64,000 nucleotides of DNA, taken from contig NZ_KZ319345.1 in assembly GCF_002744735.1 (NCBI RefSeq), positions 1-64,000 of the forward strand, given 5' to 3'. Positions 2,017 through 28,796 of this stretch are shown here, one piece after another. This DNA is from Marinobacter guineae (lineage in GTDB: Bacteria > Pseudomonadota > Gammaproteobacteria > Pseudomonadales > Oleiphilaceae). Every line of letters starts with the position of its first letter. The first letter of the stretch is position 1. Below the pieces are notes generated by a model, which searched no databases, was not told the DNA's origin, and saw only the letters and a program-made list of their open reading frames with translations. The position numbers and the translations under genes were made by a program.

Positions 2017-3852
2017 ATGAGTATTTTCAGGGGCTCCAACATCGGTAACTTCACGCGCGGTGGTCAGACAACCATCCATTACTTGCGCATGATCTGGCAG
2101 GTTGTCGTCCAATTCTCCAGGCTCTGTTTGATCTTATTTGTACTGGCGATTGCGACGACCTATTGGGTCAAAACGACGCCCCTTGAGCGCTCATTGGCAG
2201 TCGGTTACATCGAAGCCTATGTGAAATATGAAGGGCTGAAGATTGACGATGCGACCGTATCTGTTACCTACCCCGACGGTCGTAGCCGGACTATTCCGGC
2301 GGTGGGTTTCCTGCGGAACCAGGAAATTCATCGAGTGCTAGATCGAAGCACACATGCTCTGGCCTTTGGTGTGGTGTTTGGGTTTCTGGCATTGGCGGTT
2401 TTTGGTTTTGTGGCCTGGCGATTCCTCAATAGCACTGGTGAGGACTTTGCCAACGAGGAATTTGTTCGTGGCGGGAAGCTAGTCGATTCAAAGGAGCTGA
2501 CAAAAGCGATAAAGCGCACGACGAAAACAGGCGGAATGACCGTCGCGAATATACCGATCCCCAAGGATTCAGAGCCGGCTCACTTTTTGATTGTGGGTGC
2601 GCCAGGGACAGGCAAATCTGTCACCTATAAAGAAATGGCGGAGGTTATTCGGAAACGGGGTGAGCGTGCGATTTTCTACGACCCATCCGGCGAAATGGTC
2701 GAGAACTTCTATCGCGAAGGGCATGACGTGATCTTGAGTCCGTTTGACGCCAGGGGGCGTGCTTGGGACATCTGGACCGAGTGTAAAGAGGATTATGAGT
2801 TTGATCAGCTGGCGACCTCGTTCATTCCTGATCAGAAGTCTAACGATCCTTTCTGGGCTACCGCCGCGCGGATTGTTTTTGCAGCTATGGCTCGAAAGCT
2901 GGCAACCCATCCCCAGCGATCAAATAAGTTGCTAGTGGACAAAATCCTGAATGCCGATATGGAGGAAATTATCGGCTTTTTGAAAGGCACAGAAGGCGCG
3001 TCAATTCTGTCTGAAGGTGCTGAGAAAATGGCGTCATCCGTTCGAGCGGTTATGGCCACTTACATCAGACCGCTGAAGTACCTCCAGGATAATGGGCCGA
3101 CGTTTTCTATCAAGGAATGGGTGCGCAACGACGATGGTGATCAGTGGGTCTTTATCACTCGAAAAGACGACCAAAAGGACGTTGTTAAGCCGCTAATAAC
3201 CGCGTGGTTGGATACTGCATCATCTGCGATTTTGAGTATGGAACCATGCAGGGACCGGAGGATCTGGTTGCTGATCGATGAGCTGCCAAGCTTGAACAGG
3301 CTTCCCACGATTACGGACACACTGGCGCAGTCCAGGAAGTTCGGTGGATGCGGGGTATTGGGAGTCCAGAGCTACCCCCAATTGGTGTCGATCTATGGTC
3401 GCGACGAAGCCGACACACTGGCCGGCATGTGTTCGACCTGGGCTGTATTTCGGTTCAACGAAGAGCGATCGGCCAAGTGGGCCAGTCTTGGTTTAGGAAG
3501 CATCGAACAATTGGAGACTAATGAAGGCATTTCTTACGGCGTAAATGACATTCGTGATGGTGTTTCGTTGAATCGTCAGCGTCATGTTCGTCCCATTGTT
3601 CTGCCCACTGAGATCCAGTTTTTGCCAGATCTGGTGGGCTATTTAAAGCTTGGGCGTTCGTTCCCGGTGGCACAGTTCAAACTTAAGCGAAAGCCGCTGA
3701 AGAAAATTGCCGAGGGCTTCATCCACCGCGATTTGAAGGGTGATCTGCTTGAAGCGGTCGAAGCCGCTCCGGAGGCGAAGGATGGGAATTCAGAGGCGAC
3801 TGCACCTGTTGAGTCGAAGAAAAATGATTACGTCGACGGAGCGCTGTTCTGA
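2017..3852 (+). CDS. traD: Type IV coupling protein, TraD/VirD4 family
   Basis: The protein links the relaxosome to the mating channel at the inner membrane and uses ATP to feed DNA into it. Two N-terminal membrane segments are visible (about residues 27-50 and 113-135). The cytoplasmic ATPase domain has Walker A GAPGTGKS near residue 194 and Walker B IWLLIDELPS near 415, then the family's QSRKFGGCGVLGVQS stretch. The last 50 residues are Glu/Ala-rich and probably disordered. At 611 residues it is shorter than F TraD and closer to TrwB/SXT-type proteins. It starts immediately after the preceding stop codon, and its TGA overlaps the ATG of the relaxase gene (TGATG), so the three genes form an operon. 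Confidence 0.93.
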   Translation: MSIFRGSNIGNFTRGGQTTIHYLRMIWQVVVQFSRLCLILFVLAIATTYWVKTTPLERSLAVGYIEAYVKYEGLKIDDATVSVTYPDGRSRTIPAVGFLRNQEIHRVLDRSTHALAFGVVFGFLALAVFGFVAWRFLNSTGEDFANEEFVRGGKLVDSKELTKAIKRTTKTGGMTVANIPIPKDSEPAHFLIVGAPGTGKSVTYKEMAEVIRKRGERAIFYDPSGEMVENFYREGHDVILSPFDARGRAWDIWTECKEDYEFDQLATSFIPDQKSNDPFWATAARIVFAAMARKLATHPQRSNKLLVDKILNADMEEIIGFLKGTEGASILSEGAEKMASSVRAVMATYIRPLKYLQDNGPTFSIKEWVRNDDGDQWVFITRKDDQKDVVKPLITAWLDTASSAILSMEPCRDRRIWLLIDELPSLNRLPTITDTLAQSRKFGGCGVLGVQSYPQLVSIYGRDEADTLAGMCSTWAVFRFNEERSAKWASLGLGSIEQLETNEGISYGVNDIRDGVSLNRQRHVRPIVLPTEIQFLPDLVGYLKLGRSFPVAQFKLKRKPLKKIAEGFIHRDLKGDLLEAVEAAPEAKDGNSEATAPVESKKNDYVDGALF

Positions 3853-14855: not shown

Positions 14856-15612
14856 TTGGGTTCTCCAGCTTGGCAAGAATGGATTCGGCCGGTGCGCCGC
14901 CGGTCATCGTGGTTAAGCGTTTCAGGAGACTTTGTAGGCTTGAATCCCCGTAAACCACGGGCAGTCGCATTCCGGGGGTTGCAGCGCCTTTCTCGCAATA
15001 ACTTTGAAAATCAAAGTTCTGCTCAACGACCAGGGCGGGGACTTTGGTGATGTTGTGATTCCTGAATTGGATGGGATCGATGACGACATCAAGCCCTCGC
15101 ATTGCGCACTTTGGCCCCTCACACGTCGGGTTCTTGCGAAGAACCTTGGCCATGAATTCCATGGTGGGCTGTGTTTTCTTGAGACCACCGATCATGCCGC
15201 GCATCACCATCACACCACCGACCTTTTCGAGATCCCTGGCGTAATTCCGCAAGGTGATTTCCGGAATGGAGCTTGAGACGAATAGCAGGGCGCGGGAGCC
15301 AGTTGCTTTAGGGTCTGGGTTTTCAGGATCGCCAGCATCGAGGCCAGCATCGGCCCGAAGCAGACTGAGAAATTCATTCTTTCGGGCTTGCCATTGGTCG
15401 CTGTTCACCTCCTGCATGACTTCGGAGACGCGGGCCTTCATCGCCGGTGAATCCATCACCCGTTCTTTGGCCTGTTTCGCGATCGCCAGGTATTCCTCCG
15501 GCACGTTGATCTGATCGGGAAGTGTGGGAATGGCATCCGATTCCGCAGAGGCTAATGGGCTCATTAGACAGAGGGTTAGGGCAAACCCCAGGTTACTTTT
15601 AATAAGAAACAC
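14845..15612 (-). CDS. trbC: TrbC, F-type pilus assembly protein
   Basis: TrbC is a periplasmic pilus-assembly factor of F-type systems. The GTG at 15612 is preferred because AGGAGG precedes it by about 10 bases and the resulting N-terminus is a good signal peptide (LTLCLMSPLASA). The mature protein has a helical N-terminal region and the TrbC thioredoxin-like domain near residues 110-240 (LLFVSSSIPE, VKGGxMVMRG-like and ITKVPALVV motifs). At about 255 residues it is similar to the F homologue plus a longer N-terminus. It overlaps the end of traU by 14 bases. Confidence 0.9.
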   Translation of the reverse strand: MFLIKSNLGFALTLCLMSPLASAESDAIPTLPDQINVPEEYLAIAKQAKERVMDSPAMKARVSEVMQEVNSDQWQARKNEFLSLLRADAGLDAGDPENPDPKATGSRALLFVSSSIPEITLRNYARDLEKVGGVMVMRGMIGGLKKTQPTMEFMAKVLRKNPTCEGPKCAMRGLDVVIDPIQFRNHNITKVPALVVEQNFDFQSYCEKGAATPGMRLPVVYGDSSLQSLLKRLTTMTGGAPAESILAKLENPNAQ

Positions 15613-16585
15613 AGCAGTTGAGCCTCCTAAACACCATCCATGAAAAATTGTCACCGCCTGCGGGGGGGTGCTTGAAATGGCTCCACAACAAACCGGTTTG
15701 ACCGATCGGCCGGCAGCTATCGTCCCGAACAGGCTTCATCAGTTGCAGCTTGTATTTGTCCTTGGACCAAATGGGAACTGGCGCGGTATAGCAGCCATCT
15801 GAGGAGGATTCTTTTAGTAGTCCCATCCGAGCCATGAAGTAGATTCCGCGGGCTGCGATCCCGGCATTCGCCGTCACGTAATCCGTGCCGGTTATTGACC
15901 CGGCCAGGGGATAGGCTCCTGACCACGATCCCATACACCAGAAGAGGGAATTAACGGGCCTTCCAACCAAGGCGCCAGAGGAATCCGCAGCGCACGCCAG
16001 TTGAGCGACCGGGTTGGCGAACAGCAACGACTCGGGGTGAATCATCAGCGAGAGAATTTCGTTGTTCCAGGTAGGGATGAGTTCAGTCATCATCGCTACG
16101 TCGAATTCTCGCTCTGCTATGCAGGGGATGTCATAGAACAGCCCCAAGATGCTAAATGCGGGAAAGAAGTAGTAATGCATCTGCTGGAAGGTTTTGGACT
16201 GACCATCTTCCTGCATGTGCGATCCGCCCAGTTTCCCGCCGGTGTTCATCAACTTGAATCCGAGAGGCATCATGCAGTAGGGATCTGAAACGGTATCAAT
16301 GAGCCGTGCGGGCTCCCACATAGAAATACCAATGCCGTATCGATTGATCGCTCCTGAATTACAGCTGCAGAGCACGGAAGGGGAGTCAGCACCAGGATCG
16401 GGCATTCCTGAATCGCCTTTACCGATGCTCAGCCCGCCAATGCGAATCGGGAAGATGCACTGCCAAGAGACGTCCGTAACAGGATTCAGGACGCCAGAGG
16501 GGCATTTGGACGCGAGGGCTGATTGAGGGGCCGTGTAAGCCCCTATCAGTGTTAAAAGAAGCAAGATTGCTCGAATACTCATCAT
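15599..16585 (-). CDS. traU: TraU pilus assembly / DNA transfer protein
   Basis: TraU is an essential periplasmic, disulfide-rich component of F-type transfer systems. The 328-residue protein has a signal peptide (about 1-25, ending ALASKCP) and the family motifs VSWQCIFPIRIGG, NSGAINRYGIGISMWEP and SLFWCMGSWSGAYPL. At least eleven cysteines are visible, consistent with a need for the DsbC-like isomerase at 26833. It is preceded by a 72-base gap holding an operator-like palindrome, so traU and the genes below it may have a separate promoter from the upstream tra genes. Confidence 0.94.
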   Translation of the reverse strand: MMSIRAILLLLTLIGAYTAPQSALASKCPSGVLNPVTDVSWQCIFPIRIGGLSIGKGDSGMPDPGADSPSVLCSCNSGAINRYGIGISMWEPARLIDTVSDPYCMMPLGFKLMNTGGKLGGSHMQEDGQSKTFQQMHYYFFPAFSILGLFYDIPCIAEREFDVAMMTELIPTWNNEILSLMIHPESLLFANPVAQLACAADSSGALVGRPVNSLFWCMGSWSGAYPLAGSITGTDYVTANAGIAARGIYFMARMGLLKESSSDGCYTAPVPIWSKDKYKLQLMKPVRDDSCRPIGQTGLLWSHFKHPPAGGDNFSWMVFRRLNCCVSY

Positions 16586-16637: not shown

Positions 16638-16657
16638 TATATAGCACTATATGAAAA
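16638..16657 (-). promoter_or_regulatory. Operator-like palindrome, site B (upstream of traU)
   Basis: On the plus strand the site reads TATATAGCACTATATGAAAA. TATATAG and CTATATG form an inverted repeat around a 2-bp centre, followed by AAAA. It differs at one base from site C at 28231 over 20 bases. It lies between the traW stop and the traU start, 53 bases from the traU ATG, the only sizeable gap inside the operon. It is probably an internal promoter/operator for traU and downstream genes. Confidence 0.6.
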
Positions 16658-17236
16658 TTAGAGATTGATTGAGTGTTCTTCGATTCGGAGGGTGCTGCCC
16701 TCTTGTGTCACGATCGATGGAACAAACTGCAGTGAGAGTCGGTCGCGAACAGGAGGGGTAAGAATGAAAACAGGGCGCTGCAAAGCCATGGCGATAGCCC
16801 GGTAATCACCTGAGGTGATCATGACCATATCCGTGGATTTCAGGTGATCCTGTGCCCAGGCAAGGTCATCTTTTGAGATAAACATAAGCCGCTGGGGAAG
16901 ACGAACATGCTCCAGGGGATTAAATTGGAATCCCTTTGGATAGATGATTTGCCCATTTTGGTCCTTAACATCGAATTCGGCCGTGTAATAAGGAATGTGG
17001 TACCGAATGCGGTCTTCCCGCGCGCGAGGCAGAGACACGGCTTGCGCGGCAGCATTGCGCGCAACACCGTCACTCATCACTGTTTCCCAATCAACTTGAG
17101 CCACCTTGCTCTGGATCTCAGTCAGTGCATCCGGTTCAACAATCTCATAGGTGCGCCCAAGAACGTGGGATTCGGCGGCAATCAGGGATCCGGCAAGACA
17201 GCTACTGATTACTGTTATAAAAATCCGTAACACCAT
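16658..17236 (-). CDS. traW: TraW pilus assembly protein
   Basis: TraW is a periplasmic protein required for F-pilus assembly, working with TrbC. The ATG at 17236 is chosen because AGGGAAG lies about 8 bases upstream; the frame could extend to a TTG at 17254. The signal peptide is residues 1-21 (ISSCLAGSLIAAES), followed by family motifs LGRTYEIVEPDAL and YPKGFQFNPLEHV and the terminal LQFVPSIV. At 192 residues it is slightly shorter than F TraW (210). It overlaps the end of the upstream traN-like gene by 35 bases. Confidence 0.92.
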   Translation of the reverse strand: MVLRIFITVISSCLAGSLIAAESHVLGRTYEIVEPDALTEIQSKVAQVDWETVMSDGVARNAAAQAVSLPRAREDRIRYHIPYYTAEFDVKDQNGQIIYPKGFQFNPLEHVRLPQRLMFISKDDLAWAQDHLKSTDMVMITSGDYRAIAMALQRPVFILTPPVRDRLSLQFVPSIVTQEGSTLRIEEHSINL

Positions 17237-18674
17237 TAGAAATCTTCCCTTCAATTTGAGTCATGGTGTCTGGTACCAGGTCACCGTAATATTCGCTGAA
17301 ATCGATCTTAGAAAAGTCGATTGATTGGAACTCCTCGGGTGTCAGCCCGCGACAGTTCGGAGCTTCCGGGGTACCGAAGCCGGCCACAGAGTTGAGCTGC
17401 GCTCGGCCTTGTTGATGGATGATGCGACCCATTTTCGAATTGAAACAGCAATACGATTTTGCTTTTTGGACGCACCCAACAAATTCCCATTCTTCCCGGC
17501 AGTATTCTCCAATCTCGTAGCAAAACCCTGAGCCATTAAGAACACCCGTTTCCGTAGATGTTTGATCGCAGGACTGTGTGAAGTAGTCGATTACAGCGCC
17601 GACCATGGCCGTTGGATCTACGACTACGCCATAGTTTGCCATGACATCCCCAGCCACCGTGGCCGCCGCATTCGCCGCCACCATCGTAGGTGCGCCGGCG
17701 GCCAACGCAGCTTCATACTCCGATTTACCCTGCGTAATTGAGTCGTAGACTGAAGTAATCATCTGGGTCGGGGAACCAGAGTCGCCGGTGTCATCCGCAA
17801 GCACTTTGCCTGTGTTTTTGCAGCAATTCTGAAACGCGGTAGATACTCCTGCTTTATCACACCTCATTGCTCTACCTGCAAAAATCATCATCTGTCCCAG
17901 GCAGGTTCCATCGGCTGCGGTCGTGCCATCGTCCTGATACATTCCAGTATCGATGTCGTCGACCACCGGCACTTGGGTTGCCAGATCAACACAGGCATTG
18001 GGGCTGCACTGTTGTTGTCCGGCGGCGTTTTCCATGCAGGAATAGCTGTTACCTAAAGGGCAGGCGTGCTGGGTTTCTAGGGCGCAGGTTTCAGATGTGG
18101 TAGAGAAAGAAACTTGTCCGCCTGCTTGTGAGGGGAGGCCCCCAGTGTAATTGTCAGTGATCTGGATTGTGCCGACTAAACCGTTTGCACAGCTTGGGGC
18201 GGTCACTAGGTTCACAAGCGTTGTGCCCAGGAAGTTGGTACCGGATAGGCTCGGGGCGTCCCAAGTTGTGGAACCAGTAGCACTGATCGGATTGTTGTTT
18301 GTGCAAATGCTGTCGAAATCGAGCGTTGGGATCTGTGCGACCAAGCCAGTGGGGCCTGATGTTACGGCACCAGTCTTGAGATCGAATCCGACCGTGAAGG
18401 ACCCGAATTGCCGAGCGACTTTTACATCAAAATTCAAAGCAACCGGGTTCGTGCAGACCATTTGTTGACTTGAGCTACAGTCAACGGCGGAAATTGGACA
18501 TAGCGCTCCCCCGCTTGGCGATTCAAAACATGAAGCCGTCTCACCTGGTTGGCCAAGATCACCATTCATATTGAGATCTTGGCCACAGGACCAGTTGGCC
18601 GCATAAACTGAGCCGAGAGGGAGAAAGAGGCTTAAAAGTCCAATTAAAGCGGGTTGGCTGTGCCTGAACTGCAT
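17202..18674 (-). CDS. traN: TraN-like mating-pair stabilization protein, C-terminal half
   Basis: TraN is an outer-membrane, cysteine-rich protein that contacts the recipient. This 490-residue protein has its own signal peptide (1-25) and the characteristic TraN C-terminal block: YCCFNSKMGRIIHQQGR, then GTPEAPNCRGLTPEEFQ and the DFSKIDFSEYY end. It contains more than 20 cysteines. The N-terminal block usual for TraN is instead on the adjacent upstream gene, whose frame overlaps this one by 31 bases. The pair therefore looks like a TraN split into two secreted polypeptides. A frameshift is unlikely because this half starts with a good signal peptide. Confidence 0.85.
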   Translation of the reverse strand: MQFRHSQPALIGLLSLFLPLGSVYAANWSCGQDLNMNGDLGQPGETASCFESPSGGALCPISAVDCSSSQQMVCTNPVALNFDVKVARQFGSFTVGFDLKTGAVTSGPTGLVAQIPTLDFDSICTNNNPISATGSTTWDAPSLSGTNFLGTTLVNLVTAPSCANGLVGTIQITDNYTGGLPSQAGGQVSFSTTSETCALETQHACPLGNSYSCMENAAGQQQCSPNACVDLATQVPVVDDIDTGMYQDDGTTAADGTCLGQMMIFAGRAMRCDKAGVSTAFQNCCKNTGKVLADDTGDSGSPTQMITSVYDSITQGKSEYEAALAAGAPTMVAANAAATVAGDVMANYGVVVDPTAMVGAVIDYFTQSCDQTSTETGVLNGSGFCYEIGEYCREEWEFVGCVQKAKSYCCFNSKMGRIIHQQGRAQLNSVAGFGTPEAPNCRGLTPEEFQSIDFSKIDFSEYYGDLVPDTMTQIEGKISNGVTDFYNSNQ

Positions 18675-20578
18675 ATCGTATCCCTTGATGCTTGGCGAAC
18701 GGCCTGCAATGTTGCTGCGGCTTCTGCGAATTCATTAAGACATCCACACGACTGAACGACTGTCTCTCCGGGTCCAGCCGGACAAACGCCAGCGGAACAC
18801 TCGTGGAAGAAGTAATCGAAGGTATTGGGGTCTGTGCGGTTCTCCTGCACGACGCCGTTCTGAACCGCGTCAGTTGCTAAGCGCGGCTTTCTGGTCTTGC
18901 ATGCCTGTGTGCAGGCAGGCACTGAAACCTCCTCCAGAACAGAAAGGCTTTCTGTCGGCGTCAGAACACTACCGTTAGACTGCTTCAAATAGTCTTGATA
19001 GCCAGTGTTCGTGGTGCTGGCTTGAACGTTGTCAGCCCGTTCGAGGGCGTCATCGAAATCGTATGTACCGGTGACCTGACAGCGATATTTGCGCGTTTTT
19101 TGCCACCAGGGGCGTGTAGGTGTAAACGAGCAGGTTGAACCATTGATCACTTGGGTGGACGGCAACGGAGTAAGACCGGTATTGACGAAATTCTGATATG
19201 TCCAAACCCCGTCCACTTGTTCTTCCATGAGTGTGCATTCAGGGTCACTTTGGTATGCACTACAGCTGTTTGAAATGGTGTCAGGTTTGAGTTTACAGTC
19301 GGTATCGACCTTTATTTTTGCGAGCGCGTAGCCTTCGCCATTCCCCGTAACTTCCACTCTAATTTTGAAGTCGACGGGTCCACCCGTCAGATAACTCTTA
19401 AAGTCGACATTTGGCGAGCGGACCCAGTTGGTTGAGAGCTCGCAAGCGCCCGGTGGTCGTCCGGTACCTGTCCAGTTTCCGTAGGGGCCATTCCAAAGCA
19501 GGTCGGCATCGGCGTAGATCTGCATCCAGTCATCGAATTTTGCGTAGTTGATTTTTGCTTCCAAAATCCGGCTTGGGTCCAAGACATTGAATTGAACCTG
19601 GCGCTCATACATTTTGCAGCTACCCGCCCAATAGTTGTCGCCAACTTGCCCTAATGAAAGCTGAAGGCAATCTGGGCCGCATGGAAAAATGTTTCCAGAA
19701 CCGCCGGCATATTCAATGATGTCGTTCAGTGTGACTTCTTCCACTGGCACGTTCCGGGTTATTTGGCAGCTTTTGATTTGGACAGGGTCCGCTGTAGCGG
19801 CCGGAGATGTCGTAATCAAATTAAATTCCGGATCAGCGGCAGAGGCGGAGAAAGCATCGCTGGCGAGGTTACCCGGCGTGCTGTTGTAGGCTTTCAGCAT
19901 TGGCGAGCCCGCAGCGCAGTCACCGGCCTTCTGTGCGTAAAACTTAATCATCGGTCCGGTCACACCCACTTCGGAAACCGTGAGATAGTCCATTTGCGAT
20001 GTCAGCGCACCGGTTGCGCCTCCCCCCAAATCATTAAGGACTTTGTCCAAGTTGCTCATAACTAGGCCAGTCCCGCATGAGTTATTCACGCAATAGCACC
20101 CGCCCAGCTTGTTTAGGGGAATCGGGGTCATGCCGATTTCGCCTGAGCCGTTCACCACCCAAGACAGTCCCGAGCAGTTGTCCCAGGTCCCTGCGTTACA
20201 CGAAACAGCTCCGTTTGCACATACACCGGACACCGGAACCCCTGGTGTAAATACCCGATCAATCGTGCCGTCCAGGTCGCTATCTTGAGAGACCGTCAAG
20301 GTGCCAATGTCACCGCTGGCCGAGGGTGCAACGAATATTTCCAAAAACTTCTGAGAGCCGCTGCAGCCCAAATTGGCATCGAAGCTCTGGTCATCGAACG
20401 TCTTCATGGCGTCGGCAGACATCAGAGGTGTAGTGAAGTTCTGTTGGATGGCTTCGGCGCTTCCGTAGCTGCTTCTAGCATTGCCCACAGTGGTCTCGGC
20501 CTCAGTGACGGATGCCGGATCTGCCGATACAAATCCCGGTAAAAGTCCTATGAGGACGAGCAGAATCCAGCGATCCAT
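18644..20578 (-). CDS. traN: TraN-like secreted cysteine-rich protein, N-terminal half
   Basis: A 644-residue exported protein with a signal peptide (1-19, PGFVSA/DP) and about 30 cysteines. Its last 100 residues (CTQACKTRKP, then GETVVQSCGCLNEFAEA) resemble the middle of long TraN proteins from SXT/R27-like elements. The C-terminal TraN signature is missing and is encoded by the next gene. The two products together total 1134 residues, similar to long single-chain TraN proteins. It starts one base from the end of traC and overlaps its partner, so stoichiometric production is likely. The assignment to TraN rests on the downstream partner, position and cysteine pattern. Confidence 0.75.
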   Translation of the reverse strand: MDRWILLVLIGLLPGFVSADPASVTEAETTVGNARSSYGSAEAIQQNFTTPLMSADAMKTFDDQSFDANLGCSGSQKFLEIFVAPSASGDIGTLTVSQDSDLDGTIDRVFTPGVPVSGVCANGAVSCNAGTWDNCSGLSWVVNGSGEIGMTPIPLNKLGGCYCVNNSCGTGLVMSNLDKVLNDLGGGATGALTSQMDYLTVSEVGVTGPMIKFYAQKAGDCAAGSPMLKAYNSTPGNLASDAFSASAADPEFNLITTSPAATADPVQIKSCQITRNVPVEEVTLNDIIEYAGGSGNIFPCGPDCLQLSLGQVGDNYWAGSCKMYERQVQFNVLDPSRILEAKINYAKFDDWMQIYADADLLWNGPYGNWTGTGRPPGACELSTNWVRSPNVDFKSYLTGGPVDFKIRVEVTGNGEGYALAKIKVDTDCKLKPDTISNSCSAYQSDPECTLMEEQVDGVWTYQNFVNTGLTPLPSTQVINGSTCSFTPTRPWWQKTRKYRCQVTGTYDFDDALERADNVQASTTNTGYQDYLKQSNGSVLTPTESLSVLEEVSVPACTQACKTRKPRLATDAVQNGVVQENRTDPNTFDYFFHECSAGVCPAGPGETVVQSCGCLNEFAEAAATLQAVRQASRDTICSSGTANPL

Positions 20579-23079
20579 TAAAGTGGCACTCCGGATAGTT
20601 TGGACACCGCCTGAGCTGGCGTCATACCCTGAGCAATCAGTGCGTTATATTTGGCAACCTCCTTGCCGTCGGACGTTGCGATCCAGTGATTCCAGGGATC
20701 CACAGACAGCCTGCCGATACCCCGGCCAAACGGCGTATCAAAGAAGATCTCAGAGTATTTGGGTTTGTTGGCTTTTACGGAGGTCAGGAGATCGACAGCC
20801 AGGCCCTCGTAGTCGAGAACCCCTTCATCTACAGCCTTCGCGTAGTCCTCGCATTCAAGGTAAAACTTGAATGCAGCGTTATTCTTGATGACCTGTCCGA
20901 CAGGGCCGAATTTCCGGAGATCCAGCGGACTCTGCGTAACAATGCCAAAGGCCCCGGAGTACTTGCGGGCGCGGCGATAGCCCTCTTCAATCAGGTTGCC
21001 GAGTCGGTTGTTCTCCTCCCCCCGGGAATCTGAAAAGTATCGCCAGGCCTCTTCGAACAGCACGAAGCGTTGTTCGGAGCGATCGGAAAGGTAAAGATCC
21101 TGGGTGACCGAGTTCATCACCTGCATAATCACCACGTTGAACAGCTCGGCTTGACCTGAAAGCTTTTCAAGCTCCAGGACTACGAAACCATCGTTCGAAA
21201 TATCGAATCCGCCGGCGCCATTGAAAAAACGCCCGTACACGCCTTTCGTCGTGAAATCGTGCAGGTTGAAGGAGAGTTCGTGAGCCTTGGAGACCGCACT
21301 AGGCAGCGGTTCGCCCTGGTCAGAGGCGAGTTTTGGATAAGACTTCAAGTAGTGTTGAACAGCATCGATTCCGTTGACGATGTCGCCGCGGTCTGCAGTC
21401 CAACGAACGGCTTCCTTGATCAACGTCCATTCCGTTTCGTGCAGCGCTTGGCGAGAAGCGGAATATGCCATTTCAGCGAGGATGTTGGCGGTGGTCATGA
21501 GGTCCGCGTTTCGGTCATCCTCATCCTTGGAGTTGGTGTTGAACGGATTGATCGTGATCCGCTCTTTGCCGAAATCCATAAACCGGCCGCCGACCATATC
21601 GCATTGCTTCTGAAGGCTGTAACCAATGTCGGTTACTCGAACCAATGAGCCTGCAGCGTAATAGTTTTTGCAGAGATCGTTGAGCGTGTAGGACTTGCCC
21701 GCACCCGAACCGGCGGCAATGAGGAAGTTATGGTTGGGTGCTCGCTTGTCGAACACGTCCATGCCGACCAGCTGCCCTTTGCGCCCGACGTAGAGTAGGG
21801 CGGGGTCGCTGGATCCTCGAAAATCGCCTTGAATGGGCATGAAACGAGCCACGGCGCTCAGTGGCGCGTAGAAATGTCGGTCTAGCAAGCCGATGTTTTT
21901 ATCGATGTCATAGAGACCGAACGGCAATGAGGCAATCAGCATCGGTTTCTCAAGCACCGATTCTTCCTGCATCACGAAATCTTTGGATTCCCAGAGTCGA
22001 CGGGCGCGCGACACCGAATCAATGCATTCAGCTTCGGTATCTCCGAGGATGACCAAGGATGGAATGATTGTCATAAACCGTTCCGATTCGAGCTTGTCCA
22101 GAGCCCAGCTAAACTCCTCAGTTCTTTTCTGAATGGCCTTTGCAAAAGAGCCTGTGCCTTTTTGCGCCATGGTGGCGCTGGCCTTTTGGTGCAGAGAGGT
22201 TTTTATGTCTTCGAAAACAATGTTCAGGCTGAAAATAAAAGGCGTGGTTATCTGATCGGGATCATCCGGTGCGCCCATTACGCCACCGGTCAGGGTGTTG
22301 GTGGTGAAGGTATCGATGGATTTTGCGTTAACCTTTGGCGTAATCACTCGACCAAAGCGCTTGCCCAAGCGAAAGGGTTTTTCGCCACCTGAGAACTCAA
22401 TTTTGGTTTCAGCATTGATGATCTGCTTTCGCAGCGGAAGGCGGGAATCAACATTGCCGTTCGGATCGGCGTCGGCATCGTTGAAAAACTGCCGTGCCCA
22501 GGCAACTAGATGATTTGCCCCCATCCGCGCTGGCGCAAGATGGGCGGCTTGCAAGGTTTCTTCAGCGATCGACAGCACTTCACTTGATAGAGGTTTCACA
22601 GTCTTGATGCAGACAAACGCTCGCCAATTTCGAACGGGAATGCCGTGATAGCACCGCATTCCCTTTGTGCCGGCTTTTAGGAAGCTGGTGTATTGCTCGA
22701 TGGATTTCTGGAGCAGAGGTGTTCGGCGCTGTTTGTTGCGCGAATAGGCCTGAAGGATGCCGTTCACATTGTGATCAGGCGCCAGCATGATTTGGATCTG
22801 GGTTCTTTTCGGGTAGGTGACCGATAAAAACGTTTCTAATTGTTTAAGGTCACGCCCGCCCAAAAAGGTGAGAGGGCAGATCTCGAAAAGGTAGCCGTAG
22901 CGGTTATCCAGGGTCTGGAAGGCGCCCAGCTCTTCATCGAAACTTACCCATGGTAAAAAGTCAGAAAATTTGTTTCGGCGAAGCTCTTGCTCAAGGTCCC
23001 TGTGCGTGATGCCGCCATTGTCGCCAACGATCAACGACCAGATTCTTGAGAGGGGGCCTACTTTCTCTTCAGCGGTCAT
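20578..23079 (-). CDS. traC: TraC, VirB4-type secretion ATPase
   Basis: TraC is the inner-membrane-associated ATPase that energises pilus assembly. This 833-residue protein has an N-terminal TraC-F-type domain (residues 1-400, including SFLPW-like and YGYLFEICPL stretches) and a C-terminal RecA-like ATPase with Walker A GSGAGKS near 457 and Walker B RFVLFEEAWRYF near 690, followed by TQSPLDL. Length is close to F TraC (875). It overlaps traV by 4 bases and touches the traN-like gene. Confidence 0.95.
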   Translation of the reverse strand: MTAEEKVGPLSRIWSLIVGDNGGITHRDLEQELRRNKFSDFLPWVSFDEELGAFQTLDNRYGYLFEICPLTFLGGRDLKQLETFLSVTYPKRTQIQIMLAPDHNVNGILQAYSRNKQRRTPLLQKSIEQYTSFLKAGTKGMRCYHGIPVRNWRAFVCIKTVKPLSSEVLSIAEETLQAAHLAPARMGANHLVAWARQFFNDADADPNGNVDSRLPLRKQIINAETKIEFSGGEKPFRLGKRFGRVITPKVNAKSIDTFTTNTLTGGVMGAPDDPDQITTPFIFSLNIVFEDIKTSLHQKASATMAQKGTGSFAKAIQKRTEEFSWALDKLESERFMTIIPSLVILGDTEAECIDSVSRARRLWESKDFVMQEESVLEKPMLIASLPFGLYDIDKNIGLLDRHFYAPLSAVARFMPIQGDFRGSSDPALLYVGRKGQLVGMDVFDKRAPNHNFLIAAGSGAGKSYTLNDLCKNYYAAGSLVRVTDIGYSLQKQCDMVGGRFMDFGKERITINPFNTNSKDEDDRNADLMTTANILAEMAYSASRQALHETEWTLIKEAVRWTADRGDIVNGIDAVQHYLKSYPKLASDQGEPLPSAVSKAHELSFNLHDFTTKGVYGRFFNGAGGFDISNDGFVVLELEKLSGQAELFNVVIMQVMNSVTQDLYLSDRSEQRFVLFEEAWRYFSDSRGEENNRLGNLIEEGYRRARKYSGAFGIVTQSPLDLRKFGPVGQVIKNNAAFKFYLECEDYAKAVDEGVLDYEGLAVDLLTSVKANKPKYSEIFFDTPFGRGIGRLSVDPWNHWIATSDGKEVAKYNALIAQGMTPAQAVSKLSGVPL

Positions 23080-23666
23080 TGGTTGCTCCCTTGCACCTGG
23101 TCAATCAGAGAGTCAGTAAGCTCCGGCTTCTTATAAAGGTATTGGCCCATAACGAAACGCGGTTCCTCGACAATGCTGTAGACGAATCGGGGCATGTATA
23201 GCCGGTTGCGTTTCAGTTCACTGGAGTAGGGAAGAATCATGGTGCGGACTGATCGCGGAGGTTTGATCATAGGCGTCCGAGGCGCCTGAATCATGGTTCC
23301 AAGCTGATCATAAACCTGGTCGCGGTAGCCGCTGTATGCTGACTGAGGGGGCGCAAAAGAAGGATCTTCTGTGTGAGAGGGCGTCGGCGCGTCATAGGAT
23401 GTCGACACAGCGATTGGTTGCTCCTTTACACGCTGGGATCCAGCCAACTTGTTTTTTCGCTCCGCTCTGGCTTGCCGCGCTTGCTCGGACGCCCTGGTCA
23501 TGTGCGGATACTTTTCTACCCCCGTCACCGCCTCCTCATAAGCATCTTCGACAGAGATACATTTTCCAAAGTTGTCCTGTAGGTTGCAGGAGAACTCGTT
23601 TTCATAAGGCACCAGAGAACAGCCGCCCAAGAGGCTAACCGCTAACAGCAGAGTAAATTTTTTCAT
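23076..23666 (-). CDS. traV: TraV outer-membrane lipoprotein of the core complex
   Basis: TraV is the VirB7-like lipoprotein that forms the outer ring with TraK and TraB. The signal sequence ends in the lipobox LLGG-C (lipidated Cys16). The family motif of two cysteines (FSCNLQDNFGKCISVEDAY) follows, then a proline-rich linker and a C-terminal basic region. At 196 residues it is near F TraV (171). It overlaps traC by 4 bases and traB by one. Confidence 0.92.
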   Translation of the reverse strand: MKKFTLLLAVSLLGGCSLVPYENEFSCNLQDNFGKCISVEDAYEEAVTGVEKYPHMTRASEQARQARAERKNKLAGSQRVKEQPIAVSTSYDAPTPSHTEDPSFAPPQSAYSGYRDQVYDQLGTMIQAPRTPMIKPPRSVRTMILPYSSELKRNRLYMPRFVYSIVEEPRFVMGQYLYKKPELTDSLIDQVQGSNQ

Positions 23667-24841
23667 TAGCCTTTCTCCATAATGCTGAGATCCGTTCCTT
23701 TCTGGATGACCACGGTCAGCCTTTTGGCTGCGCCGACCTCAATGATGGGAACGGTTTGTTTTGCGAGATCCAAAAACAGTTTTTGGACGGCTTCAGAGCC
23801 AGACTTGAGAGCTTGACCGCCGGCGGATTGAACGATTGAGTCTGTGTCGACGATTTGTGTTGTTCCAAGCGCCGAAGTCGAGGTTGTAGCAGCCGCACCC
23901 GCAATGCCGTTTCCTGCTCCCTCGAAGAGGCCTGCGACGATCATCCGCATTACATGAGCGCCCATCTTTGAAACAACTGGACCGGTAAGCCCGCGCACGC
24001 CGTCACTGTCAGCGACGAACCCCTGAACTGGCTGATCAATGACCGCTGTTCCATCCAGGCTCATGCAGGAAAGACTGACCAACTGAAGGTTTACACGCTC
24101 CTGAGCGAGATTTGCCGTCGCATTGGCGATGACAAAGCAGCCTTTCAGGTTGGCTTTGACACTGTTTGGAAGCACCGCCGGCGCCTGAACCCGAAGCATT
24201 ACAGGCTCAGGGTTTGCGTCACCTAGTTCCGAAGTAAGGGCACGAATACCAGTCAGCAGAATTGCAGGCATGTGGCTGGGTGGCATGTAGATCGAATTCT
24301 TTTTTTTTGAAACTGTCTCCGGTTGAAAGTCGGCACCAGGGGCACGGCCAATACCGCCGACAATTCTCGCTTCAACCGGAATATCGTTGAGGGAGGATTC
24401 GGACGCGCTATAACTGGGAACATAGGTTGGAGGCTCCGGATAAGATACTTCGCCTCCGGCTTCCGGGGCTTCGAAGTCGGAAAGGGGATTCACCATTTCC
24501 TCTTTTCCGGTTTCTTCACCCTGACCCTGCCGCTTCAAATCGTTCTGAGAGGTCTCAAGCGCCGCAAGCAGAGAGTCATATTGGCGTTGTCGACGCTCCA
24601 TTTCGGCAAGTGTCTCGCCGACGTGCTTCAAATCCTTGTCTACTTTTGCACGGATGTCGTCTTCCAGGAGATCGGCACCTAGAGATAGGTCTGTCGTTTC
24701 AACCTCTTTGACTGGCTCTTTTTCGTCTTGACCGGAGGCATAGTAAACGAACAGCAAGAGAGCGAGGAAACCAGCGGCAATGCTATATTTCCGGTACTTG
24801 AGTCTGTCTTCGGCTCCGAGGCCATTCCACCAAGTCTTCAT
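23666..24841 (-). CDS. traB: TraB, VirB10-like core-complex scaffold
   Basis: TraB spans the inner membrane and periplasm and reaches the outer-membrane ring. The protein has a short cytoplasmic N-terminus, one membrane helix (about residues 23-40), a coiled-coil rich in Glu/Arg/Gln (about 60-105), a proline-rich linker and a C-terminal beta-barrel domain (about 170-391) with the typical KGCFVIANATANL and LQLVSLSCM stretches. At 391 residues it is slightly shorter than F TraB (475). Single-base overlaps join it to traK and traV. Confidence 0.93.
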   Translation of the reverse strand: MKTWWNGLGAEDRLKYRKYSIAAGFLALLLFVYYASGQDEKEPVKEVETTDLSLGADLLEDDIRAKVDKDLKHVGETLAEMERRQRQYDSLLAALETSQNDLKRQGQGEETGKEEMVNPLSDFEAPEAGGEVSYPEPPTYVPSYSASESSLNDIPVEARIVGGIGRAPGADFQPETVSKKKNSIYMPPSHMPAILLTGIRALTSELGDANPEPVMLRVQAPAVLPNSVKANLKGCFVIANATANLAQERVNLQLVSLSCMSLDGTAVIDQPVQGFVADSDGVRGLTGPVVSKMGAHVMRMIVAGLFEGAGNGIAGAAATTSTSALGTTQIVDTDSIVQSAGGQALKSGSEAVQKLFLDLAKQTVPIIEVGAAKRLTVVIQKGTDLSIMEKG

Positions 24842-25593
24842 CAGAAGCCCTCCTTAGAGACCACAAACAAACGGCCTACTTGGCCAGGTTCCAAGCTCAG
24901 CGGATCCATGGTTACCGCAAAGATCGATTCGCCAATGGCCGAGCTCAGGAAATCCGTCTCGCTGAAGGTGGTCGTGGTGCTGGTTCTGACCAAAAACTCT
25001 TTTAAGGAAAGCCCCAACCCATCCACTCGAATAGTCCGGCGCAACGCAAGTTGTGTGTTTGGCTTGCCGGCGGTCATGCGGGACACCCATTCACTGTTCG
25101 TGTTTGTGCTGACCGAAAAGCTGTCCGGGATGTCGTCCTCAAGGGCCGCCATAGTCAGATAGACTGCGCGCTCTTCATCGGGAAGGGGAGAGAGCAGTTC
25201 CTGGTTGCCTTTGATGCGGTTTTTCGCGCCTGTAGAAAGGCGGATTGTTTGCCCGGGAATGTCCTTTGGAGACACCATTAAGGTGTAAATCTCGCCGGCG
25301 CAAACCAGATAGAACTCGGATCGCGCTGAAACATATTCCTGGTGCAGCCCATCATCCTGAATCAGAAATTTGATGAAGCTATTATTCCCGTTGTTCTCAA
25401 CCACGATCCCTTTCTCTTGAGAGAAAAAAGCATCGTTAATTGCACCGTCGACACAGGTAACTCTGTTGATGTCTCGATTGGACATTTCCACTGGTGTGAC
25501 AACATCAGGCTTCACTACCTGGGTGTGAGCAAGCGCCGGCAAGCTTACTAACATCACGGCCAGTGCCGCGTTGAAAAATTGTTTATTAAGCAT
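24841..25593 (-). CDS. traK: TraK, VirB9/secretin-like outer-membrane ring protein
   Basis: TraK is a periplasmic and outer-membrane component that binds TraV and TraB. A signal peptide (1-24, LPALAHTQ) precedes a beta-rich mature protein of about 226 residues with NRDINRVTCVDG and the C-terminal SLEPGQVGRLFVV block typical of the family. Length matches F TraK (242). It overlaps traE by 8 bases. Confidence 0.92.
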   Translation of the reverse strand: MLNKQFFNAALAVMLVSLPALAHTQVVKPDVVTPVEMSNRDINRVTCVDGAINDAFFSQEKGIVVENNGNNSFIKFLIQDDGLHQEYVSARSEFYLVCAGEIYTLMVSPKDIPGQTIRLSTGAKNRIKGNQELLSPLPDEERAVYLTMAALEDDIPDSFSVSTNTNSEWVSRMTAGKPNTQLALRRTIRVDGLGLSLKEFLVRTSTTTTFSETDFLSSAIGESIFAVTMDPLSLEPGQVGRLFVVSKEGF

Positions 25594-26167
25594 CGTTCGA
25601 TACCTCCTTGATGCCGGTAAGCCAAAATCTTCCTTGCTCGAATGAATAAGAGATCTGGTAGGTGACGTTTTCCGTGCTGGTCACCGAGTCACCAACAATC
25701 CGCTTTTTCACGCCAGCAACGTGAATGGTGTCGTCGCCTACTTTTTTAATGTCTCGATTACCGCGCCATTGAACGACATAGGAGACTGTCGGGTAGCGCT
25801 CAATACCATCTGCCAGTCGGGTAAATAGATCGCGATAACGGGAGTATTCGTCGGGGTGAATGAGTGGCAACAACTCATTCAGCTGCCTTCTGGCAGTGGC
25901 GGCTGAAAGGTCGCCCGCCATATGAACGATGTAACGACTCATCGAGCGCAAGTAATCATCAGATGCCGTGGATCCTGATATAACGAAGTCGCCTTGCCCA
26001 CCAATGGGGATAAGGTGAACGCGTTGTTCATCTAGCTTCGATGAAATTGTGGCTGTCTGAAGACCAGCAAAAATCACCACCGCCACAAACCCAAATTTGA
26101 GCAGCCGGTTTTCGGCAAAGACATTGCTCGAATCCTGGACAAACAGATTGGAGAAGAGACTTTTCAT
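25586..26167 (-). CDS. traE: TraE, VirB8-like inner-membrane pilus assembly protein
   Basis: TraE is a bitopic inner-membrane protein with a periplasmic VirB8-like domain. A hydrophobic segment (about residues 24-42) follows a short cytoplasmic stretch, then the NTF2-like domain with family motifs RLLKFGFVAVV at the start and VTYQISYSFEQGRFWLTGI at the end. At 193 residues it matches F TraE (188). Three bases separate it from traL. Confidence 0.92.
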   Translation of the reverse strand: MKSLFSNLFVQDSSNVFAENRLLKFGFVAVVIFAGLQTATISSKLDEQRVHLIPIGGQGDFVISGSTASDDYLRSMSRYIVHMAGDLSAATARRQLNELLPLIHPDEYSRYRDLFTRLADGIERYPTVSYVVQWRGNRDIKKVGDDTIHVAGVKKRIVGDSVTSTENVTYQISYSFEQGRFWLTGIKEVSNDA

Positions 26168-26170
26168 GGG

Positions 26171-26440
26171 TCACTCGTGAAATTTGGTGGCAGTGGGAAC
26201 GGGATAGCCTTTGAGTTCAAAGAACCCGTTGGCATAGGCCAGATGGCTGAACCAGCCTCGGGCGCGTTTTCGTTTCATAGGAATAAGGAGGGCCGGACCA
26301 ATGAACAGCGTTATCCAGGCGAGGCCACCAAAGATGGCGGCGCCAAGATAAAAAATCACGATGATCGCCATTTCATGCGCGTCAAACCAAAGGACTTGAA
26401 GCGGCTGATGAAGGTAAATCGGTAGTCGTGATTCGTTCAT
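26171..26440 (-). CDS. traL: TraL, VirB3-like inner-membrane protein
   Basis: This 89-residue protein has the TraL layout: a short N-terminus with the family stretch LPIYLHQPLQVLWF, two closely spaced hydrophobic helices (about 24-55) and a basic RKRARGWFSHLAY loop. TraL is needed for pilus tip assembly. Length matches F TraL (91). It lies 24 bases after the pilin gene, the same order as in F (A-L-E-K-B). Confidence 0.92.
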   Translation of the reverse strand: MNESRLPIYLHQPLQVLWFDAHEMAIIVIFYLGAAIFGGLAWITLFIGPALLIPMKRKRARGWFSHLAYANGFFELKGYPVPTATKFHE

Positions 26441-26464
26441 GGTCGGCCTCCGGTCATTGCTCGC

Positions 26465-26830
26465 TTAGATGATCATGCCAAGCGAAGTTGTGATGCTGTC
26501 AGCCTTGATCATGGCGGTACCGCCCAGAACGCCACCGGCAGCAAGCATCCAGTTCTTGGTGATCTGGACTGCTGAAAGAACAATCGCAGCCAGGCCGCCG
26601 ACGAACCCGACAGGGCCTTTCAGCATGTCGTTTACAGCCACGTCGTACAGGTCAAATGCGAAGGTACCGGCAGCTGGAGCTGTGATTGCGCTGGCAGTCA
26701 TCGAACCCAGCACGAGCATGGGTACGGCAGCTACCGGGGCAGCGGAGCGGAATGAGCCAAAACGGGCTTTGGCAATGGCGCTCAGGCGAGACAGTTCTGC
26801 GTGAGCAGTTTGAGAAGCAGACACTTTCAT
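26465..26830 (-). CDS. traA: TraA propilin
   Basis: This is the major pilin subunit precursor. The 121 residues include a long leader ending at a signal-peptidase-like site SMTASA/IT near residue 48, giving a mature pilin of about 73 residues. The mature part has two hydrophobic helices (VGFVGGLAAIVLSAVQ and NWMLAAGGVLGG) joined by a short basic loop, the F-pilin topology. AAGGAG precedes the ATG, implying strong translation. The leader is basic (RLSAIAKARFGSFR), as in F TraA. The pilin should be matured by host leader peptidase or the S26 enzyme at 14388. Confidence 0.93.
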   Translation of the reverse strand: MKVSASQTAHAELSRLSAIAKARFGSFRSAAPVAAVPMLVLGSMTASAITAPAAGTFAFDLYDVAVNDMLKGPVGFVGGLAAIVLSAVQITKNWMLAAGGVLGGTAMIKADSITTSLGMII

Positions 26831-26832
26831 TT

Positions 26833-27549
26833 TTAACTCTCCTTGGTTTTGTTGGCGAGGTAATTGGCGATTACCTCTTTCCTAAAGCCCGTCACAGGGC
26901 TCCCATCGAGGATCAGTGTCGGTGTTCCTTGAACTCGCCACTGACTCGATACGTTGGCGTGAACCTGAAGCTGCTCAGCACCGGTGTCACAGGTCGCTGT
27001 AGGCTTGATTCGACGCAAATAGATGTCATCAAAGGCAGCGGCTTTGTCTTCCGAACACAGGATGTGTTGGGCTTTGGCCGGTGCGGTTTGAGGATGAATC
27101 GCTGTCATGAAGAAAATCACGCGCTTAACTGGTACTGCCGAATCGCGTATGAATTCGTCGTAGCGAAGGCAATAGGGGCAATCCGGGTCTGTGAACTCGA
27201 TAATGGGAACGCCGTTCTCGGGGCCAAGAACGAGCGCCTGGTCATAAGGGAGGTCTTCAAGCCGGAGGCGGTTTGCTCGCGCAATGGCTTCTGCAGTTAG
27301 CGATTGACCTTCAAGGTCATAAATCTCCCCGAACACCAGAGCATTATTTTCCGCCGAGAAGTAAATCACCTGGGCTCCGCTCAACGTCACCTCGTAAAGG
27401 CCATCGATAGGGCCAGGCCTGACATCGTGGATCTTAGAATTGGTGAACTTTGCAGCCAGGGTGTTCTTAACCTCTTCGATGGTCGTTGCATGGGCTGTGA
27501 TTGAGAGCGCAATCAGAAGGATTGCCGAGATCATTCGAGAGCATTTCAT
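26833..27549 (-). CDS. dsbC: DsbC-family periplasmic disulfide isomerase
   Basis: This 239-residue exported protein has an N-terminal dimerisation-like domain (about 25-95) and a thioredoxin domain with active site CPYC (FTDPDCPYCLRY) and cis-Pro loop GTPTL. DsbC enzymes shuffle wrong disulfides. Substrates here would be the cysteine-rich TraU, TraN-like and TraV proteins. The ATG at 27549 forms an ATGA overlap with the stop of the preceding gene, and the first 18 residues are a good signal peptide (LLIALSITAHA). A longer frame to 27672 would overlap the upstream gene extensively and is rejected. F carries the functionally related TrbB. Confidence 0.9.
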   Translation of the reverse strand: MKCSRMISAILLIALSITAHATTIEEVKNTLAAKFTNSKIHDVRPGPIDGLYEVTLSGAQVIYFSAENNALVFGEIYDLEGQSLTAEAIARANRLRLEDLPYDQALVLGPENGVPIIEFTDPDCPYCLRYDEFIRDSAVPVKRVIFFMTAIHPQTAPAKAQHILCSEDKAAAFDDIYLRRIKPTATCDTGAEQLQVHANVSSQWRVQGTPTLILDGSPVTGFRKEVIANYLANKTKES

Positions 27550-27779
27550 TTGGAAGACGTCCGTGATTGAGGTTTGGTCAGCTCCTGCAAGAGCCGAGGA
27601 TCGATATGAACACCGCGCGCGATTTTTTCTAACTTGGGCTTGGGGAGGCGAGCATGGTCCAGAATGACCCAAGTGCCTTCATCGAAAACCACTTCGCTTT
27701 TGGGCTTGCTGGCCAGAGCGGGGGTGGTAATCCCGCTCAGGAGTGCGGCCGCTAGTAATATAGAGTTAGTCGTTTTCAT
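27546..27779 (-). CDS. Small exported protein, first gene of the mating-apparatus operon
   Basis: A 77-residue protein with a signal peptide (SILLAAALLSGITTPALA) and a short mature part of about 54 residues that is basic and lacks cysteines. It is the first gene after the tra promoter region and overlaps the dsbC-like gene by 4 bases (ATGA). The family is not recognised. Similar small exported proteins often head F-type operons in environmental elements, but no role can be stated. Confidence 0.65.
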   Translation of the reverse strand: MKTTNSILLAAALLSGITTPALASKPKSEVVFDEGTWVILDHARLPKPKLEKIARGVHIDPRLLQELTKPQSRTSSK

Positions 27780-27844
27780 ATAATCTGTGCAACCTACAGG
27801 CGGTGACTTACACAGATGGAGTATATGATAGGTTTATACGCTCG

Positions 27845-27864
27845 TATATAGTTTTATATGATTT
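27845..27864 (-). promoter_or_regulatory. Operator-like palindrome, site D (tra operon promoter region)
   Basis: The plus strand reads TATATAGTTTTATATGATTT. The arms TATATAG and TTATATG surround a 2-bp centre, the same layout as sites B and C. It lies 66 bases upstream of the first tra operon gene (ATG at 27779) and overlaps the 3' end of the RHH-like gene at 27854. A further half-site TATATGA is at 27822-27828. The 27780-27853 gap is the only plausible promoter for the roughly 20-kb minus-strand operon. Confidence 0.55.
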
Positions 27865-28165
27865 TTTTCGACTTCTTCGCGAGGTACTTCACCAGGGAGG
27901 TGTAAATGACGCGGTTTTGCGGCTGACTGTCTTCTTCGGCTCGGGTTTTCACTTCCATGACGATAGGGTTCGGCAACCAAATGCTGATATAGACGCCGTC
28001 GCGGGGAGAGGCAAGGTATTCAGGGTCGTTTGATGCGAGAAACCAACTCACGGCATCGCGGTAGAGTTGCTTTAAAAAAATCCCTTCTTGAGCAGCATAG
28101 GATTTCAACGCAGATCGAGTGTCTTCACCCAACTTTAGTTGCTTGAGAGTCTCATGCGTGTCCAA
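27854..28165 (-). CDS. Tandem ribbon-helix-helix-like regulator (TraY-like), copy 1
   Basis: This 103-residue protein appears to hold two consecutive strand-helix-helix units, one at residues 8-48 and one at 57-98, separated by the motif YLASPRDG. It is a clear paralogue of the protein at 28307: both share YLASPR(D/E)G, a W-L pair, EV...AE-D, P-NRV-YT-LV. F TraY also has two ribbon-helix-helix domains on one chain and acts as relaxosome factor and activator of the tra promoter. That analogy, and the position immediately upstream of the tra operon, suggest a transfer regulator that binds the nearby TATATAG-type palindromes. This is inference. Confidence 0.68.
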   Translation of the reverse strand: MDTHETLKQLKLGEDTRSALKSYAAQEGIFLKQLYRDAVSWFLASNDPEYLASPRDGVYISIWLPNPIVMEVKTRAEEDSQPQNRVIYTSLVKYLAKKSKKII

Positions 28166-28230
28166 TGGTGTCGCTTCCTGGTGAGTTGATGGGCACCGTC
28201 CATGGCGTGCCGCGACGGATCAACAGGAAT

Positions 28231-28250
28231 TATATAGCATTATATGAAAA
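28231..28250 (-). promoter_or_regulatory. Operator-like palindrome, site C
   Basis: The plus strand reads TATATAGCATTATATGAAAA, identical to site B (16638) at 19 of 20 positions. It lies 65 bases upstream of the RHH-like gene starting at 28165, in the 141-base gap between the two paralogous regulators. The spacing to the start codon is close to that of sites B and D (53 and 66 bases), which supports a shared regulator and promoter architecture. Confidence 0.62.
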
Positions 28251-28306
28251 TGTCTAAAATAAAATGTTACTTTGCGAGACTATCGAGGAAATTGACATTT
28301 TGGGAG

Positions 28307-28618
28307 CTATTCGAAAAAGCGAACCAGGGCAGTGTATTCGACCCGGTTTACAGGCACGTCGTCTTGCTCTGCCGCCGATTGTACTTCGGCAAGTATAGAG
28401 TCCCGTAGCCAAAAGGATCTGGATTTGCCCTCGCGCGGGGAGGCAAGGTACTGGATCTTCTTGATTTTTCTGTCCGCGATTAGTTTCTCCATTGCTTCAT
28501 CGAACACTTCTTGCATTAAAACGTCATCTTGCACGGCCTTCATTTTGATTGCTCTGTGAAGGTCATCTGGCATTTTTACTTGTTGAAGGGTTCTCTCAGC
28601 TTTTTTCGCGGTCGTCAT
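28307..28618 (-). CDS. Tandem ribbon-helix-helix-like regulator (TraY-like), copy 2
   Basis: A 103-residue paralogue of the protein at 27854. The first unit (about residues 10-50, QVKMPDDLHRAIKMKAVQDD) resembles a ribbon-helix-helix domain. The second (about 64-103) follows YLASPREGKSRSFWL. The two paralogues differ most in the first unit, so they may bind different half-sites or form heteromers. The gene has its own 178-base upstream gap (28619-28796), A+T-rich, containing the half-site TATATGA at 28744-28750 and nothing else I can name. Function is inferred as for its neighbour. Confidence 0.66.
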   Translation of the reverse strand: MTTAKKAERTLQQVKMPDDLHRAIKMKAVQDDVLMQEVFDEAMEKLIADRKIKKIQYLASPREGKSRSFWLRDSILAEVQSAAEQDDVPVNRVEYTALVRFFE

Positions 28619-28743
28619 CTACTGCCTCACTGTTTGCACACCGGCGTGGCAATCATGGCGGCGTCCGGTGCTGCAACTGGTTAGAGAATTCAATCCAATC
28701 AATTACGATTGAATTTATAGTTGTGTACGAAACCAATTAATTT

Positions 28744-28753
28744 TATATGAATT
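28744..28753 (-). promoter_or_regulatory. Half-site of the transfer-region motif
   Basis: TATATGAATT in an A+T-rich stretch about 125 bases upstream of the RHH-like gene at 28618 matches only the right half of sites A to D. The left arm is absent. It may be a weak operator or a chance match. Confidence 0.25.
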
Positions 28754-28796
28754 AATCCGTTTGCGATATACAACCCAGCGCCAAAGGGCATGCAGG

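Follow-up and report, generated by a model that had tools for sequence, protein, structure and literature searches.

Gene content of the plasmid and position of the palindromic sites

The 64-kb window analysed here is the start of contig C7 (101,296 bp), which represents 2.3% of a 4.46 Mb Marinobacter genome. It carries genes for a TrwB-type coupling protein and a MobF relaxase, F-type tra genes such as TraU and TraC, and a parA-parB operon, which identifies C7 as a MobF/MPF_F conjugative plasmid or the greater part of one; no overlap was seen between the two contig ends. The relaxosome genes lie on the forward strand and comprise P0003 (1735-2016), a 93-aa accessory protein with a GTG start that occupies the TrwA position and is a single ribbon-helix-helix (RHH) protein by inspection, the TrwB-type coupling protein (2017-3852) and the MobF/TrwC-type relaxase (3852-6641). 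Between this operon and a leftward gene, positions 1432-1687 form a conserved non-coding stretch containing a repeated GCGCATACGC and an inverted copy of it, the probable oriT.

The genes of the tra region considered here are on the reverse strand. They include traU (15599-16585, identified by a match to the domain PF06834), a dsbC-like gene, the first of the tra genes (26833-27672), and a 77-aa tra leader gene with a signal-peptide-like N-terminus (27546-27779), whose position is occupied by a gene in the relatives as well. Upstream of the leader gene, on the same strand, are RHH-1 (P0001, 27854-28165; 103 aa, TTG start), a predicted tandem RHH protein, and its paralogue RHH-2 (P0002, 28307-28618; 103 aa), 38% identical to it. 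Upstream of RHH-2, positions 28797-52941 carry a large signalling cargo of hybrid histidine kinases, response regulators, a GGDEF protein and an HD-domain protein. Outside the window, the parA-parB operon contains a gene for a KorA-like protein of 201 aa (C7 88852-89457). About eight copies of a dyad of the type AGTTTCCGGCCGGAAACT / TGTTTCCGGGCGGAAACA extend from C7 91865 to 101207 (91.8 kb to the contig end), near parA-parB, and are candidate ParB-binding or replication sites.

A preliminary description had proposed that a shared palindrome precedes several transfer units. Reading of the sequence located all four of its sites, which lie on the forward strand. The first (1688-1704, TTTATACTAGTATATGA), the weakest of the set, ends 30 bp before the GTG codon of the relaxosome RHH gene at 1735, and not 25 bases as originally given. 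The second (16638-16654, TATATAGCACTATATGA; 20-base form TATATAGCACTATATGAAAA) is upstream of traU, with its target genes on the reverse strand; it separates traU from the gene at 16658-17254 (reverse strand), and the two form one fused ORF in enterobacterial relatives. The third (27845-27861, TATATAGTTTTATATGA) covers the stop codon of RHH-1 and is followed by the leader gene, dsbC and then the tra genes. The fourth (28231-28247, TATATAGCATTATATGA; 20-base form TATATAGCATTATATGAAAA) is inside the RHH-1 promoter and is indeed identical to the traU site at 19 of 20 bases. A genome-wide search added a fifth site at C7 91653, between parA, which runs leftward, and a small rightward gene. The S of the initial pattern TATATAG-NN-STATATGA is not conserved, since the sites at 27845 and 28231 have T; TATATA-N4-TATATGA, together with a partly conserved AAAAT, describes the sites better. 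The TATATGA end and its A-rich extension are on the same strand at 1688, 16638, 27845, 28231 and C7 91653, although the likely targets include genes of either orientation.

Rarity and conservation of the sites

Within the window, a search allowing up to three mismatches returned seven matches at five places for 0.73 expected, a number that none of 100 dinucleotide shuffles reached. In the whole 4.46 Mb genome, up to two mismatches gave five places only, all on C7: the four earlier ones and 91653, and not the many unrelated positions that would have spoken against a regulatory motif. As a reversed-pattern control across the genome likewise gave five matches at two mismatches, significance rests on the matches with no or one mismatch, all four of which are on C7. 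A 22-column weight matrix, trained on the five sites that it scores, gave them 22-36 bits, the next match reaching 12.3 bits and the maximum in 20 Markov sequences 12.2 bits; an additional match at C7 99461-99492 was not clearly above chance. Among 124 Marinobacter genomes, the fixed sub-pattern WATATANNNNTATATGAAA had 17 exact matches, 15 of them on six plasmids bearing RHH-1.

This distribution bears on whether the sites could be targets of a chromosomal host regulator of plasmid transfer. Host proteins such as ArcA and H-NS do control F-like transfer promoters (PMC7303359), but such a regulon should include chromosomal genes, and the genome has no match with zero to two mismatches outside C7, while the 118 Marinobacter genomes without the plasmid have just two exact matches to WATATANNNNTATATGAAA. 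We consider this explanation very unlikely.

RHH-1 is present in 6 of 100 genomes of the genus, the present one included, and the five other copies are 92-99% identical. Close copies of RHH-1 are found in Marinobacter flavimaris, M. maroccanus and metagenome bins. The traU, RHH-1, leader and par sites recur in the five other plasmids, each departing from the pattern at one base at most; the exceptions are one plasmid with no reported leader site and one with no reported par site. The traU site does not differ among the six plasmids, and the relaxosome site is kept in every one, with 16 of 17 bases identical in the most diverged. Comparison with this plasmid (G007) revealed 92% identity over site bases (78/85) for 75% over the flanks (605/803; Fisher p = 1.8e-4), a conservative figure given that gap placement costs one site a base.

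At the RHH-1 promoter, the conserved block begins approximately at the -35 element, and the DNA just upstream is often unrelated among the six plasmids. Between RHH-2 and the RHH-1 promoter, 42 bp (window 28266-28308) have given way in the relative G089 to about 12 kb of other DNA, with the promoter and palindrome left intact. RHH-2 does not adjoin RHH-1 in three further relatives, and thus in four of the six plasmids. Judging from these sequences, the position directly upstream of the RHH-1 -35 element appears to be an insertion hotspot. Searching plasmids at the nucleotide level with the 27.5-28.9 kb region gave no match.

A coincidental resemblance between AT-rich promoter elements, with TATATA-like -10 boxes mimicking palindromes, would fit the base composition of the motif and its overlap with the -10 element of RHH-1. 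The shuffle control, the gap in weight-matrix scores, the restriction to the plasmid, the conservation above the flanks and the counterpart sites in relatives described below all argue against it and make it highly improbable. The sites are instead, on sequence grounds, very probably operators of a plasmid-encoded regulator. That one regulator would control both relaxosome and pilus genes, as initially suggested, is well supported by sites that are plasmid-restricted, placed at promoters and conserved across species, and the idea extends to the parA region.

RHH-1 homologues and palindromes in enterobacterial and Aeromonas plasmids

Searches with tblastn detected distant RHH-1 homologues (about 25-29% identity) in plasmids of Yersinia, Enterobacter, Salmonella, Citrobacter and E. 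coli, and phmmer found them in seven of seven relatives (E 1e-10 to 1e-4). Where annotated, the enterobacterial homologue is labelled hypothetical protein only; in the two Aeromonas plasmids it is absent from the annotation (CP061478, about 87960-88310; NZ_AP023400, 78646-78990). RHH-1 directly precedes the leader gene, dsbC and the tra genes in the Marinobacter plasmid as in the enterobacterial and Aeromonas ones, and the enterobacterial order (small gene, RHH-1, leader gene, dsbC, tra genes) is the one found here. A class-level search with the RHH-1 profile returned only two weak matches. An RHH match in Skermanella was not retained as a family member: its plasmid has VirB-type genes and is outside the MobF/MPF_F plasmid family of C7.

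A de novo dyad census of five enterobacterial plasmids revealed two recurrent palindromes in each, TTTTGYGCATGCRCAAAA and TGATAYAAATTTGTATCA. The latter, present in 10-14 copies per plasmid, is centred 25-58 bp before the traU, tra leader and relaxosome genes in all five, for an expectation of 0.025-0.037 sites per 200 bp, the five plasmids being related and hence not independent draws. In four of them (the fifth was unscored) it also stands 42-50 bp upstream of the parA-divergent gene; further copies precede RHH-1 in the Enterobacter plasmid and lie at other operons. Aligned on the same dyad centre, the Marinobacter TCATATAGT|GCTATATAC and enterobacterial TGATACAAA|TTTGTATCA sites share ATA/TAT at positions +/-5 to 7. 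Each of the two Aeromonas plasmids has only one such dyad, GGATATCAATGTTTATCC (GGATAT-N6-TTATCC), between the RHH-1 homologue and the leader gene.

The other enterobacterial palindrome (TTTTGCGCATGCGCAAAA; TTTTGYGCATGCRCAAAA), with about 16-21 copies of TTTTGYGCATGCRCAAAA per plasmid in the five plasmids, resembles the KorB/ParB-type sites described for NAH7 and is, by this analogy, probably the KorB/ParB site of these plasmids. In the Salmonella (L080, 19623/19685), Citrobacter (L090, 31825/31887) and E. coli (L092, 18477/18539) plasmids, the tra leader gene is preceded by two palindromes separated by exactly 62 bp, or about six helical turns, a spacing that could allow cooperative binding or looping.

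In alignments, the first strand has Gln at its centre in both Marinobacter proteins, where RHH-1 of the enterobacterial and Aeromonas plasmids has Arg. With three lineages only, we propose this residue as a possible specificity determinant.

Candidate regulators and sign of control

Alignment places two strand-helix-helix units in RHH-1, which is thus predicted to hold two RHH units in one chain. A structural model (mean pLDDT 69.7, moderate confidence) has helices at residues 14-26, 31-44, 67-78 and 82-98, and its best alignments were to a permuted single-chain Arc (Z 5.3) and to F TraY (Z 4.5-5.1), the next row having a Z of 3.0; Foldseek gave no significant match with the model. The RHH-1 family profile matched nine PDB sequences, all weakly (E 0.027-1.7), which we take, partly by name, to be RHH/CopG/omega-type DNA-binding proteins. 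Nothing relevant was found when P0001 was compared with single PDB chains, and no TraY model was recovered for P0001 or P0002 from Pfam and NCBIfam even at E values up to 1-5. The single-sequence model of P0002 (pLDDT 47) was too poor for use.

With a site in its own promoter, a model resembling Arc and F TraY, and homologues in every relative tested, RHH-1 is favoured among the regulators of C7, and we consider it probably the protein that binds the sites. For the TraY-like tandem RHH binder initially proposed, RHH-1 is the best candidate; RHH-2, named with it, is less likely. By blastp, these two were the only DNA-binding regulators of C7 with relatives in all three of the plasmids read first. 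RHH-2 and the relaxosome RHH protein (1735-2016) do share their plasmids with the sites, and RHH-2, as a close paralogue, shares the predicted strand residue of RHH-1. However, RHH-2 lacks a full site, its promoter has a different conserved element (28736-28756, ATTAATTCATATAAAATTAAT on the gene strand; 8.5 bits in the weight matrix, within noise), and its position varies between plasmids. No relative of the relaxosome protein, for its part, was detected in the enterobacterial plasmids, and the site that precedes its gene is the weakest of the five. Binding by either of these RHH proteins is therefore improbable.

A further candidate is the KorA-like protein of the parA-parB operon, which could bind the operators in the manner of IncP KorA or NAH7 ParR. 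One site adjoins parA, the head of its operon, the protein has a weak KORA domain match (17.5 bits), and the KorA homologue ParR of NAH7 binds oriT (PMC12421886). The KorA-like protein and P0003 also occur in exactly the same six Marinobacter genomes as RHH-1, so that co-occurrence within the genus fails to discriminate among the three. The domain score is nevertheless below the curated cut-off of 26.7, and four of the five sites are at transfer genes. Moreover, the KORA model found nothing in six RHH-1-bearing relative plasmids, four of which have counterpart palindromes (the E. coli plasmid being outside this set), and phmmer gave no relative below E 0.49. The KorA-like protein remains a rival for the Marinobacter sites, albeit an unlikely one. 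Across the seven relatives examined with phmmer, neither it nor P0003 was present in all, and ParB was weakly detectable. ParB, although weakly conserved there too, is not our first choice because a second palindrome, of the KorB/ParB type, is present in the enterobacterial plasmids, and a cluster of TTTCCGG-type dyads lies near par on C7 itself. No relative was found of the Marinobacter parA-divergent gene, which was set aside as a regulator.

The clearest promoter of the set is that of RHH-1, a sigma-70-like TAGACA-N16-TATAAT (28229-28256, reverse strand) with 11 of 12 consensus bases, found in all six plasmids; the palindrome fills its spacer and overlaps the -10 element. A simple sigma-70 scan gave no convincing promoter at 16638, 27845 and 1688 (traU, leader and relaxosome), so that repression is not readable there and activation is possible. 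In the relatives, the palindromes often contain TATGAT, a possible -10 element, and in three plasmids TTGATT-N16-TATAAT or TTGCCT-N16-TATAAT stands just before the palindrome of the tra leader gene. The overlap with -10 elements suggests repression, and from these sequences RHH-1 would, with good probability, act as a repressor.

For the binder, the sign of control and the physiology, we infer the following scheme. The palindromes would be operators of a plasmid-wide regulon, and RHH-1, encoded at the head of the tra operon, would fold as a single chain like an RHH dimer, as in F TraY. It would bind the 17-18 bp dyad TCATATA-N4-TATATA in or near the promoters of RHH-1 itself, of traU, of the tra leader and relaxosome operons, and of the pair formed by parA and its divergent gene. 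Because the site overlaps the -10 region or the transcription start at the clearest promoters, binding would most likely repress: RHH-1 would regulate itself, and the transfer genes would be expressed together at a low level, with the block perhaps lifted after transfer or upon titration of RHH-1. We assign a probability of about 0.58 to this reading of a plasmid-wide operator regulon bound by RHH-1, most likely autorepressing.

Elements of this scheme are found in known systems. F TraY is known for its roles at oriT and PY, IncP KorA has palindromic binding sites in several plasmid promoters, and R388 TrwA is an RHH accessory protein that autoregulates the relaxosome operon. Like F TraY, a monomer with the whole RHH-dimer fold (PMC12117103), RHH-1 is predicted to have a tandem RHH in one chain, its gene heads an F-type tra operon and its model aligns to F TraY; unlike F TraY, it has no sequence match to the TraY family, and sites are found at no fewer than five operons, par among them, F-like plasmids having one main tra promoter (PMC7303359). 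MobC of IncU plasmids is described as an RHH accessory protein that autoregulates its relaxosome operon (PMC4175270); in contrast to TrwA and MobC, which act locally near oriT, one motif here spans pilus, relaxosome and partition loci. Omega of pSM19035 is likewise an RHH protein with sites overlapping plasmid maintenance promoters (PMC9499535), but it uses arrays of 7-bp repeats, whereas here there is one 17-18 bp dyad per promoter, mainly at transfer genes. Plasmid-wide palindromes before partition and transfer genes are shared with IncP KorA/KorB and NAH7 ParB/ParR (PMC12421886), from which the operator sequence is unrelated. Five operator-like sites at five operons, one of them at the candidate regulator, recall plasmid-wide repressor regulons of the KorA/omega type.

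Plasmid-wide palindromic regulons (KorA/KorB, omega; PMC12421886, PMC9499535) and, from F, a TraY-like tandem RHH protein are thus already known. In the open-access literature searched, we found neither the present regulon nor the enterobacterial palindrome described.

More tentatively, a tandem-RHH TraY-like protein might be the ancestral master regulator of this MobF/MPF_F plasmid family, joining transfer, partition and its own expression. The operator would have been respelled (TCATATA half-site in Marinobacter, TGATAY in Enterobacterales) with its positions kept, possibly via the Gln/Arg change. If RHH-1 indeed binds these operators, one small RHH protein would coordinate pilus, relaxosome and partition genes, providing a control logic for conjugative plasmids of marine bacteria, Enterobacterales and Aeromonas, and the lineages would represent a natural experiment in the co-evolution of operator and regulator.
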